Shown in pieces: positions 1,282 through 26,329 of a stretch of DNA of 64,000 nucleotides. The translations under genes and the position numbers were made by a program. The notes under the pieces are model-generated. The model searched no databases. It worked only from the letters and a program-made list of their open reading frames with translations, and had not been told where the DNA came from. Each line of letters opens with the position of its first letter. The first letter of the stretch is position 1. Source of the DNA: Saccharomonospora glauca K62. GTDB lineage: Bacteria; Actinomycetota; Actinomycetes; Mycobacteriales; Pseudonocardiaceae. The stretch covers positions 3,528,524 through 3,592,523 of the forward strand of contig NZ_CM001484.1 in the NCBI RefSeq assembly GCF_000243395.2, given 5' to 3'.

Positions 1282-1468
1282 CGTGTCCGCAGCCTACGTA
1301 CGCGTGTCCGCACCTTAGGGACTCGTGTCCGCAGTTTGGGGACACGTGTTCGCACTTGCGGTACACCGGGGTCCCCTGCCGTGCGGCCCGAACGGAAACC
1401 CGGTGTACACAACCTGCAGACATGCGTACGCAATCTGCGGACACGAGTGCACAACCTGCGGACACGGC
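1282..1468. repeat. 21-bp unit inverted array 1 (4 left, 3 right units)
   Basis: Four left units start at 1282, 1303, 1324 and 1345, each opening CGTGT(C/T)CGCA, and the fourth carries the TTCGCACTT variant. A 40-nt centre follows. Three right units start at 1406, 1427 and 1448 and contain the reverse-complement core CTGC(G/A)GACA(C/T). The period is exactly 21 bp. The array fills most of the space between the convergent TPP-enzyme gene (stop at 1275) and fadB (stop at 1528). Spacers of about 10 bp vary between units. Confidence 0.9.
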
Positions 1469-1527
1469 AGGGCCACCGGCCCCGCATGCGCGGGGGCGGT
1501 GGCCCTCGTCAGCAGCCTCGGGGAGAC

Positions 1528-3696
1528 TTACTCGAAGATCTCGCCCTTCTCGGCCTTCTCCACCAGCGAGGCCGGCGGCTCGAAGTGGCTGCCGTAGCGC
1601 TCGGCGAGTTCACGCGCCCGCGCGACGAAGCCCTTCAGCCCGCCCTCGTACTGGTTGATGTACTGGATCACACCACCGGTCCAGGCGGGGAACCCGATAC
1701 CGAAGATCGACCCGATGTTGGCGTCCTGCACCGAGTTGAGCACGCCCTCGTCGAAGCACTTGACGGTCTCCAGCGCCTCGGCGAACAGCATCCGCTCCTG
1801 GAGATCTTTGAACGGCACGTCGCCGCTGCCGCTGTTGAAGGCCTCCCGCAGCCCCGGCCACAACCGGACCCGCTTGCCGTTCTCGTCGTACTCGTAGAAC
1901 CCGGCCCCGGACGAGCGGCCCTTGCGGTCGAACTCGTCGAGCATCCGGTCGATGACGGCCTCGGACGGGTGCGGCGTCCACGTGCCGCCCGCCGCCTCCA
2001 CGGCCGCCTTCGTCTCGTTGCGGATCTTGCGCGGCAGCGTCAGCGTCAGCTCGTCCATCAACTGCAGCGGCGGCGCCGGGTACCCGGCCTGCGCACCGGC
2101 CTGCTCGATGGTGGCGGGCTCCACGCCCTCGCCGACCGCGGCGACGGCCTCGTTGAGGAACGTGCCGATCACGCGGCTGGTGAAAAAGCCCCGGCTGTCG
2201 TTGACGACGATCGGGGTCTTGCGGATCTGCAGCGTGAAGTCGAAGACCTTCGCCAGTGTGGCGTCGGAGGTCTTCTCCCCGCGGATGATCTCCACGAGCG
2301 GCATCTTGTCCACCGGCGAGAAGAAGTGGATGCCGATGAAGTCCTCCTGCCGCTCCACGCCCTCGGCGAGCGTGGTGATGGGCAGCGTGGAGGTGTTGGA
2401 GCCGAGCACCGCATCGGGTTCGACGATCTTCTCGATCTCGGCGAACACCTTGTGCTTGAGCTCGGTGCTCTCGAAGACGGCCTCGATCACGAAGTCGACG
2501 CCGGCGAAGTCGGCCGCGTCACCGGTGGTGACGATGCGGTCGAGCAGCGCCTTGGACTTCTCCTCGGTGGTCTTGCCGCGCTTGAGGGCCTTCTCCTCCA
2601 GCTTGCGGGCGTAGTCCTTGCCCTTCTCGGCGTTCTCCTTGGAGACGTCCTTGAGGACGACGTCAATGCCGGCCTTCGCGCACACGTACGCGATGGCGGC
2701 ACCCATCATGCCTGCACCGAGCACACCGACCTTGCGAGCGGTGTACTTGTCGTAGCCCTCGGGCCGCGAGCCACCGGAGTTGATGTGCTGCAGGTCGAAG
2801 AAGAACGCCTTCGTCATGTTCTTCGCGACCTGGCCGGTGACGAGGTTGACGAAGTACCGCGTCTCGATCTTGAACGCGGTGTCGATGTCCACCTGCGCGC
2901 TCTCCACCGCGGTGGCGAGGATGGCGCGCGGCGCGGGCATCGGCGCGCCCTTGAGCTGCTTGCGCAGCGTGGCCGGGAACGCGGGCAGGTTCGCGGCGAA
3001 CTTCGGGTTCGACGGCGAGCCACCGGGAATCTTGTAGCCCTTGGCGTCCCACGGCTGCTGGGCCTCGGGGTTGGCCTTGATCCACTCCTTGGCCTTGGGC
3101 AGCAGCTCGTCGACCGAGCCCACGAGCTCGTGCACGAGGCCGAGTTCCAAAGCCTTGGCGGGCCGGTACCGCTGGCCCTGCACCAGCACGTTCAGCACGG
3201 CGTTCTGGATGCCGAGCAACCGCACGGTGCGCACGACACCACCGCCACCGGGCAGCAGGCCGAGGGTCACCTCGGGCAGTCCAATCTGGACACCCTTCAC
3301 GTCGGCGACGATGCGGTGGTGGCAGGCCAGCGCGATCTCCAGGCCGCCGCCCAGGGCCGCGCCGTTGATCGCGGCGACCACGGGCTTGCCCAGGGTCTCC
3401 AGCCGACGCAGGTCCTGCTTCATCGCGTTGGTCATCTCGGTGATGGCCTCGGCGTCGGCCGGGGTGGCCTTGATGAGGTCGTTGAGGTCGCCGCCCGCGA
3501 AGAACGTCTTCTTCGCCGAGGTCAGCACCACACCGGTGATGGAGTCCTTCTCCTCCTCCAGGCGGTCGACGATCACACGCAGCGACTCCCGGAAGTCGGC
3601 GTTCATCGTGTTGGCCGACTGCTTCGGGTCGTCGAGCGTGAGCACGACGATGCCGTCGGAGTCCTTCTCCCAGCGGATGGTCTTGGCTTCAGTCAT
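1528..3696 (-). CDS. fadB: Fatty acid oxidation complex alpha subunit (enoyl-CoA hydratase / 3-hydroxyacyl-CoA dehydrogenase)
   Basis: This 722-residue bifunctional enzyme performs the second and third steps of beta-oxidation in the cytoplasm. The N-terminal crotonase domain (about 1-190) has the oxyanion segment GAALGGGLE and glutamates near 120 and 142. An NAD-binding motif GAGMMG lies at 327-332, and the dehydrogenase segment [15 protein letters not shown] follows. The ATG at 3694-3696 is preceded by a GAGGGA ribosome-binding site. A longer frame reaching 3756 would overlap fadA and lacks family similarity. It lies 16 nt downstream of the thiolase gene, the usual FadA/FadB operon and trifunctional-complex arrangement. 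It corresponds to mycobacterial FadB (Rv0860-like). Confidence 0.95.
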
Positions 3697-7675: not shown

Positions 7676-8880
7676 TCAATCTTGAGGTCCCGAAGAAGGC
7701 CAAGGCCCTGGTCAACCAGGCGCGGCAGGCCGCGACCGAGGTGTTCCGGCCGATCTCCCGCAAGTACGACCGCGCCGAGCACTCCTACCCCACCGAGCTG
7801 GACATGCTCGCGGCGCTGCTCGACGGGCTGAACACCTCCGGCGAGGGCGGCGCGGGCGCGGCGGGCGTGCGTCGCAAGGACGACAAGCCGACCTCCGGCA
7901 ACCGCAACGGCGGCAACCTGCTCACCGTGCTCGGCACCATCGAACTGTGCTGGGGCGACGTGGCGCTGCTGCTGTCGATGCCACGCCAGGGACTCGGTAA
8001 CGCCGCCATCGCGTCGGTGGCCAACGACGAGCAGCTCGAACGGTTCGGCAAGCTGTGGGCCGCCATGGCCATCACCGAGCCCGGCTGCGGTTCCGACTCG
8101 GCCGCCATCACCACCACCGCCACCAAGGACGGCGACCACTACATCCTCAACGGCGAGAAGATCTTCGTCACCTCCGGCGAGCGTGCCGACGCCGTGGTGG
8201 TGTGGGCGACGCTGGACAAGAGCAAGGGTCGCGCCGCCATCAAGTCCTTCGTGGTGGAGAAGGGCACCCCCGGCTTCGAGGTGGTGCGGCTGGAGCACAA
8301 GCTCGGCATTCGCGCCTCCGACACGGCGGTGCTGCGGTTCGACAACTGCCGCGTGCCCGCCAAGAACCTGCTCGGCTCCCCGGAGATCGACACCAAGAAG
8401 GGTTTCGCGGGGGTCATGCAGACCTTCGACAACACCCGCCCGCTCGTGGCCGCGATGGCCGTGGGTGTCGCGCGGGCGGCGTTGGAGGAGACCCGGCGAA
8501 TCCTGACCGAGGCCGGCATCGAGGTGGACTACGACAAGCCGGCCCTGGCCCAGCACGCCGCCGCGGCGACGTTTTTGCAGTTGGAGGCCGACTACGAGGC
8601 GGCGTATCTGACGACGCTGGAAGCCGCCTGGATGGCCGACAACCGCAAGCCCAACTCGCTTCAGGCGTCGATGGCGAAGGCCAAGGCGGGACGCACGGTC
8701 GTCGACATCACGCTCAAGTGCGTCGAGCTCGCGGGCACCTTCGGCTACACCGAGGAGTCGCTGTTGGAGAAGTGGGCGCGCGACTCGAAGATCCTCGACA
8801 TCTTCGAGGGCACGCAGCAGATCCAGCAACTCATCGTCGCCCGCCGTCTGCTGGGCAAGACGAGCAAGGAACTGAAGTAA
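7672..8880 (+). CDS. Acyl-CoA dehydrogenase (FadE23-like)
   Basis: This 402-residue acyl-CoA dehydrogenase starts within the stop codon of the preceding gene. It has the flavin-binding segment MAITEPGCGSDSA, a standard middle domain, and the C-terminal DIFEGTQQIQQLIVARRLLG typical of the family. Actinobacterial FadE pairs encoded this way are thought to form hetero-oligomers with one shared active-site set; that is inferred here from the coupling, not shown. A strong hairpin terminator begins 9 nt after the stop, which closes a two-gene operon. Confidence 0.9.
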   Translation: MINLEVPKKAKALVNQARQAATEVFRPISRKYDRAEHSYPTELDMLAALLDGLNTSGEGGAGAAGVRRKDDKPTSGNRNGGNLLTVLGTIELCWGDVALLLSMPRQGLGNAAIASVANDEQLERFGKLWAAMAITEPGCGSDSAAITTTATKDGDHYILNGEKIFVTSGERADAVVVWATLDKSKGRAAIKSFVVEKGTPGFEVVRLEHKLGIRASDTAVLRFDNCRVPAKNLLGSPEIDTKKGFAGVMQTFDNTRPLVAAMAVGVARAALEETRRILTEAGIEVDYDKPALAQHAAAATFLQLEADYEAAYLTTLEAAWMADNRKPNSLQASMAKAKAGRTVVDITLKCVELAGTFGYTEESLLEKWARDSKILDIFEGTQQIQQLIVARRLLGKTSKELK

Positions 8881-8943: not shown

Positions 8944-9481
8944 CTGCCTTCCCAGCCCCTCAAACGGGGTTCCTTCAGCTCGTGCGTGTTCGCAGCTTCC
9001 CGTAGGAAGCATGTCAACGCATCACACAGATCACGCTCCGGTCGATAGTGGCCGAAAAGCGAAGTTGTTATAAGACAGGAAATCTCGTAAGTCCACTATG
9101 TCTCATCAAGGTGGACGATTCCGTTCTCGCACCTCTAGCTGGCCGACACCTAGATCCTCAACGGCATCCCACAGAGAGTGGGAACATGCAGGCCTCCAGC
9201 TCGAGGCGGAACGGTTGAAGCCCCTCTGGCGCACGCCGTGATCAGCAATCTTCGGCGACGAAAGGAAGCCGAGCGAGCTCTGCGACAACCGAACCCCGCA
9301 CCGGCCGCGGTTCAGGACCCCACAAGACAATTATGTGACACTCGTCACAATCGGAAACGAAGTTGGCCACTCGACGTCAATATCGAAATAAGGGGACGGC
9401 CTTCCAACGGAGGGGCCATCACTCCACAGGGGTATCGCAACACAGGGATCATCACAGTCACATAGGGGGAAAGGTCGAAGT
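8944..9481. other. Gene-poor interval before the type VII-like pair
   Basis: About 540 bases carry no convincing gene. The base composition is noticeably richer in A and T from about 9040 to 9470 than in the neighbouring genes. The interval holds one possible solo copy of the 21-bp repeat unit (8985-9004) and a GGGGGAAAGG ribosome-binding site just before the gene at 9482. A 95-codon open frame inside it has no family resemblance. Confidence 0.6.
8985..9004. repeat. Possible solo 21-bp repeat unit
   Basis: CGTGTTCGCAGCTTCCCGTA matches the left-arm unit pattern of the arrays (CGTGTYCGCA, then a variable part ending in GTA). No partner unit is seen next to it. It could be a decayed remnant or a chance match. 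Confidence 0.35.
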
Positions 9482-10922: not shown

Positions 10923-11062
10923 CGGCACCGGAGGATTGGCACGCTTGAAGTGCTAATGGCGCCAATCGGGGCCGGTGGCGTCCGGAAGGGCCCACCGGCC
11001 CCGACACTTGAGTCGGCATATCTGGGTTCTCGCTCCTTAACTTCTCGCCGGGACGGCAGTAG
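10923..11062. other. Interval upstream of the one-armed repeat array
   Basis: The left arm expected from the other arrays is not found here. No gene or convincing terminator is seen. Confidence 0.5.
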
Positions 11063-11146
11063 GCACCGAAGTGCCAACATCCGTACACAGACTGCGAACA
11101 CGCGTGCACAACCTGCGGACACGTGTGCACAGGCTGCGGACACGGC
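11063..11146. repeat. 21-bp unit array 2 (right arm only, four units)
   Basis: Units start at 11063, 11084, 11105 and 11126. The first is a degenerate form of the inner variant (GAAGTGCCAACATCCG compared with AAGTGCGAACACGCG). The next three carry CTGCGAACAC or CTGCGGACAC. The exact 21-bp period is kept. The array stands between two genes in the same direction, about 130 nt upstream of mnhA. Confidence 0.85.
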
Positions 11147-21791: not shown

Positions 21792-21925
21792 CGTGTCCGC
21801 AGGTTGTGCACACGTGTCCGCAGACTGTGCACGGTTGTTCGCACTTGGAGCACACGGGGGCGTACACCAAGTGCGAACACGCGTACATCACCTGCGGACA
21901 CGAGTACGTCACCTGCGGACACGGC
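21792..21925. repeat. 21-bp unit inverted array 3 (3 left, 3 right units, 8-nt centre)
   Basis: Left units start at 21792, 21813 and 21834; right units start at 21863, 21884 and 21905. The centre CGGGGGCG is 8 nt. The inner pair carries TTCGCACTTGG and its complement CCAAGTGCGAA. Outer units carry GTGTCCGCAG and CTGCGGACAC. The array ends 3 nt before the stop codon of the cysteine desulfurase gene. It is the most symmetrical copy in the window. Confidence 0.93.
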
Positions 21926-21928
21926 GGT

Positions 21929-23122
21929 TCAGACCCAGTGAACCTCGCGTCGCCTCTCGCTGCGGCCCGAGACGGCTGTCGCCGTGATCAACTCGGCCGC
22001 GCGGTCGACCTCCTCCTCGGTGCTCCACCGGCCCAGCGACAGTCGCAGCGCCGACAGGCTCCGCTCGACGGGCAGGCCCATCGCGGTCAGTACCGGGGAC
22101 GGACCGTGTCGGCCGCTGTGACAGGCCGACCCCGTCGACGCCGCCACCTCGGGGGTCGCGTGAAGCAGTTCCCACCCGCGCACGCCGTCGATGCTGACGT
22201 TGAGCGTGTTCGGCAGCCGTGCTTCCAGCGGCCCGTTGAGCCTCACCCGGTCGCCCAGTTCCGCGCGGAGCCGTTCGTGAAGCCGGTCACGCAGCGTACG
22301 GACGCGGTCGAGAACGCCGGCTTCGAGGTCGGCCCCGGCGAGTCGCGCGGCGGTCCCGAGCGCCACGGCGAAGGCCACGTTCTCGGTTCCCGCCCGCAGT
22401 CCCCGCTCCTGCCCTCCCCCACACACCAACGGCTCCAGCCGCACACCGGGTCGCACGTACAGGGCTCCCACGCCCTTCGGCGCGTACATCTTGTGCCCGA
22501 CCACGGTCAGCAGGTCCACGTCGAGCGCGGTCACCTCGATCGAAAGCTTCCCCACCGCCTGAGCGGCGTCGCAATGGAACACCGCGTCGTGCTCGTGAGT
22601 GATCCGGGCCAGCTCGGCGATCGGCTGCAACGCCCCCGTCTCGTTGTTCGCCGCCATGACGGACACCAACACGGTGCGCGGGGTGAACGCGGCGGCCAAC
22701 TCGTCGGGGTCGACCGTCCCGTCCCCACGGACCGGCAGCCAGGTGACGTCGACGCCGTACCGGCTCCGCAACATCCGGCACGACTCCAGTACGGAGGGAT
22801 GCTCGGTGCGTTGGGTGATCACGTGTGGACGGTCGATCCCGGCGGCCAGGGTAACGCCGTGCACCGCGAGTGCGTTCGCCTCGGACCCCGAACCGGTGAA
22901 CACGATCCGCTCGCCCGACGTCCCGATCAGAGCGGCCACCTGCGCCCGAGCGCGGTCCAACGCCGCCCGCGGTTCGCCGCCGTAGTGGTGTTCGCTCGAC
23001 GGGTTGCCGAACGCCTCGGACAGGTAGGGCGACACGGCGTCGACGACAGCGGGATCGACCGGGGTGGTGGCGTTGTAGTCGAGGTAGATCGGCCCGGCCA
23101 CGAGCCCGCTGGGGACGGCCAC
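21929..23122 (-). CDS. Cysteine desulfurase (NifS/IscS-type)
   Basis: The 397-residue PLP enzyme removes sulfur from cysteine for Fe-S clusters or thiolated cofactors. The start of the catalytic domain reads YLDYNATTPVDPAV. The PLP lysine is K211 in VVGHKMYAPKG, and the persulfide cysteine is C334 in STGSACHSG, which is the class I pattern. The GTG start at 23120-23122 follows GGAAGG; an upstream ATG at 23203 lacks conserved sequence. No scaffold, tRNA thiolase or phosphorothioation genes are adjacent, so the acceptor is unknown. Confidence 0.93.
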   Translation of the reverse strand: MAVPSGLVAGPIYLDYNATTPVDPAVVDAVSPYLSEAFGNPSSEHHYGGEPRAALDRARAQVAALIGTSGERIVFTGSGSEANALAVHGVTLAAGIDRPHVITQRTEHPSVLESCRMLRSRYGVDVTWLPVRGDGTVDPDELAAAFTPRTVLVSVMAANNETGALQPIAELARITHEHDAVFHCDAAQAVGKLSIEVTALDVDLLTVVGHKMYAPKGVGALYVRPGVRLEPLVCGGGQERGLRAGTENVAFAVALGTAARLAGADLEAGVLDRVRTLRDRLHERLRAELGDRVRLNGPLEARLPNTLNVSIDGVRGWELLHATPEVAASTGSACHSGRHGPSPVLTAMGLPVERSLSALRLSLGRWSTEEEVDRAAELITATAVSGRSERRREVHWV

Positions 23123-25056: not shown

Positions 25057-25169
25057 CGTGTCCGCAGTTCTCGTACGCGTGTCCGCACTTCCCGTACACC
25101 CGCTCGTACGAGAAGTGCGAACACGTGTGCACAAACTGCGGACACGCGTACGTAGCCTGCGGACACGCC
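25057..25169. repeat. 21-bp unit inverted array 4 (2 left, 3 right units, 8-nt centre)
   Basis: Left units start at 25057 and 25078; right units start at 25107, 25128 and 25149. The centre CCCGCTCG is 8 nt. The inner pair matches through GCACTT and AAGTGC, and the outer units carry CGTGTCCGCAG or CTGCGGACAC. A possible decayed third left unit precedes 25057. The last unit ends 2 nt before the stop codon of the acyl-CoA dehydrogenase gene. Confidence 0.92.
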
Positions 25170-25171
25170 GG

Positions 25172-26329
25172 TCAGTTGGTTACGCCCAGTTCTCGGGCGA
25201 TGAGCATGCGCTGGACCTCGCTGGTGCCCTCGCCAACCTCCAGGATCTTGGCGTCGCGGTAGAAACGACCCACCGGGTACTCGTTCATGAACCCGTACCC
25301 GCCGAAGATCTGCGTGGCGTCGCGGGCGTTGTCCATGGCGGCGTTGGAGGCCGCGAGCTTGGCGATGGCCGCCTCCTTCTTGAACCGCTCGCCGCGCAGC
25401 ATCTTGGCCGCCGCCTGGTAGTACGCCAGCCGCGCCGTGTGGGTGCGCATCTCCATGTCGGCGATCTTGAACTGGATCGCCTGGTACTCACCGATCTTGT
25501 GGCCGAACGCCTCACGTTCGGCGACGTAACGCAGGCATTCGTCCACACACCCCTGAGCGAGTCCCACCGACAACGCGGCGATCGCCACCCGCCCTTCGTC
25601 CAGGATGGACAGGAACTGCGCATACCCGCGACCGCGTTCGCCGAGCAGGTTCTCCTCCGGCACCCGGCAGTCGTCGAACGTGAGCCCGTGCGTGTCCGAG
25701 GCGTTCCAGCCGACCTTCGAGTACTTCGGCTGCACCGTGAGGCCCGGCGTCCCCGACGGCACGATGATCGCGGAGATCTCCTTGCGCCCGTCGGGTTTCT
25801 GCCCGGTGACCGCCGTCGCCGTGATGATGCTGGTGATGTCGGTGCCGGAGTTGGTGATGAAGGACTTGCTGCCGTTGATCACCCACTCGCCACCGTCGAG
25901 TGTGGCCGTGGTGCGCGTCGCCGACGCATCCGAACCACCGCCCGGCTCGGTGAGCCCGAAGGCACCCAACGCCCGGCCCGCGCACAGCTCGGGCAGCCAA
26001 CGCTGCTTCTGCTCCTCGGTGCCGAACCGGTAGAGCGGCATCGCACCGAGCGAGACCCCGGCTTCCAGGGTGATCGCAACCGACGAGTCGACCCGCGCCA
26101 GCTCCTCCAAAGTGAGGCACAGCGCGAAGTAGTCACCGCCCATACCGCCGTAGGCCTCGGGGAACGGCAGGCCGAACAGCCCCATCTCCCCCATACGGCG
26201 AACGATCTCGTACGGGAACTCCTCCCGTTCGTAGAACTCCCCGATCACCGGGGCTACCTCGGACGTGGCGAAGTCGCGCACCGTGGCGCGAAGGTCCTCG
26301 TACTCCTCGTCCAACCTGTAATCGATCAT
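25172..26329 (-). CDS. Acyl-CoA dehydrogenase (isovaleryl-CoA / FadE19-type)
   Basis: The 385-residue flavoprotein has [19 protein letters not shown] (FAD contact), a central [14 protein letters not shown], and a C-terminal [20 protein letters not shown]. The position directly after a biotin-dependent carboxylase pair suggests a branched-chain acyl-CoA such as isovaleryl-CoA, as for FadE19 next to accA1-accD1 in mycobacteria. It starts in an ATGA overlap with the carboxylase alpha gene. A longer upstream frame reaching 26635 is the antisense-like shadow of that gene. It is the last gene of the operon. Confidence 0.9.

Follow-up and report, generated by a model that had tools for sequence, protein, structure and literature searches.

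A family of intergenic arrays built from polar 21-bp units recurs throughout the genome of Saccharomonospora glauca K62 and in further genera of the Pseudonocardiaceae. The units share a conserved core and a guanine at position 17 (G17), and their arms meet head to head in helical phase, do not pair with each other, and take a characteristic position and polarity at gene ends. With our confidence balanced about evenly, we read the arrays as putative sites where a protein assembles on one face of the DNA at transcription-unit ends and acts as a transcription boundary; the protein, its cooperativity and the boundary function are what we infer. The window, by which we mean the whole 64,000-nt stretch analyzed here (contig NZ_CM001484.1, positions 3,528,524 to 3,592,523), holds four such arrays:

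1282..1365, + strand: array 1 left arm, four units, the innermost of the TTC type
1404..1466, - strand: array 1 right arm, three units
1468..1510, - strand: strong hairpin, terminator-like, separating the array 1 right arm from the stop of the - strand gene 1528-3696
11061..11144, - strand: array 2, one-armed, three units plus a degenerate fourth
21792..21854, + strand: array 3 left arm, three units
21855..21860, no strand: array 3 centre, between the arms
21861..21923, - strand: array 3 right arm, three units
25057..25098, + strand: array 4 left arm, two units
25105..25167, - strand: array 4 right arm, three units

Array 3 has the design that a sequence-only reading of the window had described, with three left and three right 21-bp units around a centre of 8 nt if counted between inverted-repeat arms, or 6 nt between whole 21-bp units. 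On the + strand its cores begin at positions 21792, 21813 and 21834, those on the - strand at 21872, 21893 and 21914; the sequence of the inner pair is TTCGCACTT, and in the third left core (GTTGTTCGCA) the first letters are degenerate. The right arm starts 5 nt past the stop of a - strand gene (21929-23122) that we take to encode a cysteine desulfurase-like protein. The same design had been claimed for arrays 1 and 4, where it does recur but not identically, with four plus three and two plus three units, respectively. The array 4 right arm starts 4 nt past the stop of a presumably acyl-CoA dehydrogenase-like gene on the - strand (25172-26329). Just past the acyl-CoA dehydrogenase stop, four array-free MAGs of the same GTDB genus carry other stop-proximal palindromes (loci L196-L199).

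In array 1, the left arm starts 6 nt past the stop of a + strand gene ending at 1275, and 70 bp separate the left and right arms, measured from core start to core start. The right arm lies 61 nt from its stop behind the hairpin (MFE -37.2), and the ortholog in DX1, a MAG of the genus, keeps the identical order, with the arm 62 nt from the stop. The one-armed form that the earlier reading placed at 11063-11146 is array 2, which has three good units (cores 11093-11144) and a degenerate fourth at about 11061-11081; no recognized stop precedes it. A lone TTC-type core lies at 8985-8994 of the window, about 100 nt past a stop at 8880 and a hairpin, and the corresponding gene end in the S. piscinae ortholog (L011) carries a real arm.

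The window contains 21 copies of the core CGTGTYCGCA, where shuffling predicts 0.78, and none of 100 shuffles reached 21. Pairs of cores at the 21-bp period (core-N11-core) number 204 across the 4.56-Mb genome and 0 in the reversed control, placing the arrays far beyond the four loci first noticed. We read 45 stretches around the listed matches together with the window, which yielded 56 arrays; under the later arm rule, the window genome's set comprises 87 arms with 290 units. Its 204 distinct units have G at position 17 in 98% of cases and C at position 20 in 90%; in the 185 distinct units of S. piscinae, G occupies position 17 in 99% and position 20 in 92%. The site thus takes in all 21 bp and is variable at positions 11-16. 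The special inner unit of the earlier description, the TTC type, is typical of the window genome, where it accounts for 44 of 87 inner units and for none of the 87 outer ones; S. piscinae has it infrequently, in 8 of 94 inner units. The inner TTC unit is thus a trait of the window genome and depends on dialect.

Eight of the 12 genomes of the genus carry the exact pattern, with 24-316 matches in the seven besides the window genome, and it is absent from the remaining four, which are 82-91% complete. Among 285 other sampled genomes of the family, only two have it, with one match each. A looser core, GTGTYCGC at 21 bp, gave at least 12 matches in eight genomes of five other genera (G009, 217; G020, 129; G187, 67; G058, 41; G028, 32; G092, 18; G081, 14; G146, 12), all with reversed controls of 0 and each with its own dialect of the remaining letters. 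At least one looser match appears in 126 of 297 family genomes, mostly one to three per genome, and judged from their letters these low counts look like chance matches in coding sequence. The period does not differ among these relatives: it is 21 bp throughout, in searches that required 21 bp and were compared with reversed controls of 0.

One genome of another genus of the family (G248, genus g26) gave 29 matches in the reversed control itself. These belong to a diverged 21-bp mirrored dialect with the consensus TGtGTCCCACccTCggGCgct, in which the innermost unit carries the C-to-T change of the window's inner unit in 4 of 21 printed arms. Since this dialect surfaced only through the reversed control, dialects with other cores may be missed by a core search. 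A three-unit pattern was found in 12 of 397 sampled genomes of the order, ten of them in the same family; the two outside it have identical spacers and resemble simple tandem repeats. Named genomes of other groups gave, among the matches listed, single matches that by eye resemble unrelated tandem or coding repeats. We discarded a virus-borne repeat, as viral contigs in IMG/VR gave 0 exact matches to CGTGTCCGCA-N11-CGTGTCCGCA, a search with the exact core only.

The arms have a polarity, and many of them abut a stop codon or a terminator-like hairpin. Using gene calls from a codon-usage script, we found the outer arm edge within 14 nt of a same-sense stop in 160 of 335 arms from six genomes of the genus, and at exactly 3-4 nt in 69. 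The inner edge lay within 14 nt of an antisense stop in just 16 of the 335; for random non-coding positions, the corresponding numbers are 527 of 12720 (same-sense) and 63 of 12720 (antisense). The flush position is weaker in some genomes (flush shares of 50/87 in the window genome, 11/42 in DX1 and 3/14 in NB11) and in other genera, where a stop is found no more than 14 nt away for 29 of 85 arms and no stop is recognizable for 38. Of 229 arms in four genomes, 15 sit 30-90 nt from the stop, and for nine of these 15 a strong hairpin (below -20 kcal/mol) occupies the 48 nt before the array, compared with a share of 0.14 for flush arms and 0.18 and 0.20 in two controls.

For 215 arrays both neighbors are no more than 400 bp away. 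Convergent genes flank 101 of them, compared with 248 convergent pairs among the 1113 gene pairs of these loci, and the other 114 lie elsewhere. The mirrored-arm picture of the earlier reading was overstated, as 151 of the 215 arrays are one-armed. In mirrored arrays between codirectional genes, the second arm has no gene end to serve. We also considered arrays as a replacement for hairpin terminators and rejected this: at convergent ends, hairpins accompany 49 of 88 ends with a flush arm and 57 of 90 ends without an arm of their own (sampled from 306), with 45 and 48 in shuffled sequence, so that flush-arm ends are not poorer in hairpins.

The spacing between facing arms follows the helical repeat. 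For the 64 unique head-to-head pairs, the distance between innermost cores modulo 21 is 4-8 (11 pairs) or 15-18 (53 pairs), and no other value occurs. A period of 10.40 bp fits best (R 0.897, n=64; bootstrap range 10.25-10.45), compared with an R of 0.655 at 21 bp, and none of 20000 jittered sets matched the observed R. The ladder persists when the 18-bp class is left out (R 0.857, n=43) and after dropping similar centres (R 0.853, n=38); in the deduplicated gaps, the half-lattice class accounts for 10 of 38, all at 4-8 modulo 21. Under a looser rule, 109 of 120 neighbor gaps fall within 2.5 bp of 18+10.4n, and the 11 convergent gaps off the ladder measure 13 (four times), 21 (twice), 32, 34, 35, 43 and 94 bp. 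Outward-facing cores lie at 22-23 and 33-34 bp, one turn apart, in 18 of 22 cases.

In another genus, the gaps of G020 are 18 bp eight times, 37 three times, 47 twice and 58 once; the eight distinct gaps of G248 show no phase (R 0.23 at 10.4 bp). The same-strand count, 692 of 750, is partly a product of selection, as two cores at a 21-bp period were the pattern by which loci were picked; this bias does not touch the inter-arm ladder, the stop distance, the polarity or G17. The earlier idea that proteins on successive units would face the same side thus gains independent backing from the 10.4-bp ladder between mirrored arms, protein binding itself remaining putative.

Because the ladder runs in whole turns, the polarity is fixed and the site is conserved, we favor a candidate protein that would sit on the DNA in several copies on one face. 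Each 21-bp unit (CGTGTYCGCA, G17 and dialect-specific letters at 19-21) would be a polar site for a sequence-specific DNA-binding protein, and two to more than ten copies would bind in a row along that face, each two helical turns from the next. Where arms meet head to head at a whole-turn distance, both would join in a single nucleoprotein patch. As the arrays sit at transcription-unit ends, a transcription boundary is the most likely job: arms placed close past the stop codon or terminator-like hairpin, in constant orientation to it, could hold a protein roadblock that dampens both read-through and antisense transcription, mostly where genes converge. In a search for the binding protein among genes repeatedly preceded by an array at their start, we found assorted genes and, by eye, no obvious regulator.

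The same geometry could serve topology. Arrays might bind gyrase or a nucleoid-associated protein and absorb supercoils or organize the nucleoid with no direct effect on RNA polymerase, an explanation that the helical phasing and the enrichment between convergent genes fit equally well, and that has company in E. coli BIME-2 elements cut by gyrase and RIB elements binding IHF at transcription-unit 3' ends (both from the reference list of PMC2817692). We nevertheless judge it rather improbable, because the frozen 10-bp polar core, the genus dialects and the orientation of each arm to its own gene exceed a general topological need.

An RNA element in the 3' untranslated region, whether a hairpin that terminates transcription or a sequence near the stop that makes ribosomes stall, would account for the arms that start 3-4 nt past a stop. 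Ribosome stalling has been reported for REPs within 15 nt of stop codons, and excerpts of PMC12306157 report that REPs less than 16 nt from a stop lower translation. Arms of the window genome do fold slightly better than post-stop controls (z -1.48 versus -0.79, n=50 each), but those of S. piscinae do not (z -0.63 versus -1.00, 50 sampled each), so the folding signal is inconsistent between these two genomes. Single units fold no better than shuffled sequence (MFE -3.38 versus -3.58 for 204 units of the window genome; -2.94 versus -3.81 for 182 of S. piscinae), and Rfam has no match at the gathering score within the window.

Matched units of nested arms agree at 3.62 of 9 variable positions, against 3.90 for same-rank units of different arrays in the window genome, and at 4.45 against 4.95 in S. 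piscinae and DX1. Nested arms are therefore not complementary, as the sequence-only reading had noted for their spacers, and we set aside both an RNA hairpin of the mirrored arms and an intrinsic terminator maintained by complementary change between arms. As some arrays moreover lie past a terminator-like hairpin and helical spacing makes no sense for RNA, we regard an RNA element as highly improbable. The earlier claim of a separate intergenic family under selection as DNA is supported: the arrays spread genome-wide, occur in several genera, keep the 21-bp period and show no link to a transposon.

Among known repeats, the nearest class is REP/BIME with its RAYT transposases, which likewise comprises many short extragenic copies in inverted arrangements at gene 3' ends, often near stop codons (excerpts of PMC2817692, PMC3733652 and PMC12306157). 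The 21-bp arrays differ in being non-palindromic, in their fixed direct period of 21 bp, and in the absence of the Y1 transposase (PF01797) from five array-bearing genomes of the genus: the window genome (G000), G062, G090, G144 and G173. This transposase is found in four of the 12 genus genomes, including the array-free G160, and we found no link to a known transposon end of the kind the earlier reading had raised. The REP tags GTAG and CGTC are scarce in units of the window genome (1 and 5 of 204), and GTAG occurs in 102 of 182 S. piscinae units within a non-palindromic dialect. Membership in REP/BIME thus fails on palindrome, transposase and tag.

Plasmid iterons are tandem direct repeats of 17-22 bp, spaced at whole turns, that serve a replication protein. 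Unlike iterons, the 21-bp arrays are spread over the chromosome past gene ends, mirrored and away from an origin; we rejected an iteron on genomic spread only. RIB elements have another sequence and another period. What they have in common with the arrays is a protein-bound repeat at transcription-unit 3' ends (reference list of PMC2817692), the protein being putative for the 21-bp arrays.

As a functional precedent, the TTF-I (Sal-box) terminator clusters past mammalian rDNA come nearest. An excerpt of PMC3772059 describes homotypic short core sites past the transcribed region, 18-123 bp apart in the mouse, to which TTF-I binds cooperatively and at which it stops the polymerase. The 21-bp arrays differ in being bacterial, in occurring at many genes, and in their strict 21-bp lattice and mirrored arms, with a binding protein that is only inferred. 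About half of the arms have the TTF-I-like arrangement of homotypic polar sites directly past a transcription unit.

How transcripts end and how convergent genes are insulated in GC-rich actinobacteria is poorly understood, and here the sequence alone points to many putative protein-bound boundaries with measurable geometry. A wider version of the boundary reading, which we put forward tentatively and lean somewhat against, is a dedicated gene-boundary system in which a lineage-specific candidate protein coevolves with its 21-bp site in several Pseudonocardiaceae genera and forms, on a helically phased polar lattice, a protein-based transcription boundary. If true, it would be a bacterial counterpart of the rDNA terminator clusters, spread genome-wide. 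The ladder and the genus dialects predict one binding protein, same-face cooperativity, and read-through that changes when an array is reversed or when its centre moves by half a turn. Among the open-access papers listed on Saccharomonospora or Pseudonocardiaceae repeats, stop-proximal repeats or roadblocks we found no description of this family, and none of the listed papers that contain the motif letters is on bacteria, judged by title.

At orthologous gene ends, arms persist. Genes of the window genome with an arm have an ortholog with an arm in 12 of 19 cases in DX1 and 11 of 15 in S. piscinae, compared with 0 of 24 and 7 of 57, respectively, for genes without one, both locus sets having been chosen for arrays. 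When 207 unit pairs of orthologous arms are matched by position, identity is 0.98 at G17, a letter that none of the search patterns asked for; core identity is 0.89-1.00, partly by selection because arms are defined by the core. Positions 11-16 are identical in 0.36-0.52, against 0.33-0.49 among random units, and when the window genome is compared with G090 alone (49 pairs), spacer identity somewhat exceeds the random level (0.43-0.57 versus 0.31-0.48). Core and place thus stay, and unit number and spacers turn over. Two orthologous arms of the window genome and G090 (L158 and L217) are letter-identical, and the other compared arms of these species differ, which suggests recent exchange of this segment.

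This persistence bears on the possibility that the arrays are a selfish or neutral repeat, which would copy itself between loci, settle past gene ends as harmless places and expand by slippage, its phase descending from one ancestral palindromic array. Four arrays of the window genome (L141, L143, L148 and L156) have a nearly identical centre of about 60 bp that includes a degenerate unit, so array centres seem to be copied between distant loci in this genome. Runs of identical spacers and the species-wide spacer types of G144 are likewise what such a repeat would produce. So is an empty site in G111, where the intergenic region orthologous to array 3 measures 29 nt and holds no array; array 3 is therefore dispensable in G111, and individual arrays come and go. 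Arms nonetheless outlast the turnover of spacers at orthologous gene ends, the half-lattice class is hard to derive from one ancestor with random indels, and the five array-bearing genomes lack a REP-type transposase, the only type of mobility gene sought. We accordingly think a selfish or neutral origin unlikely.

In G144, most of 100 listed spacers are of the CTTCC or CCTCC type and differ from those of the window genome, which points to a probable species-level homogenization of dispersed arrays. In G090 (C1:652275-662897), four arrays lie about 3.5 kb apart and three of them have an identical spacer, which suggests a tandem segmental duplication carrying the array.
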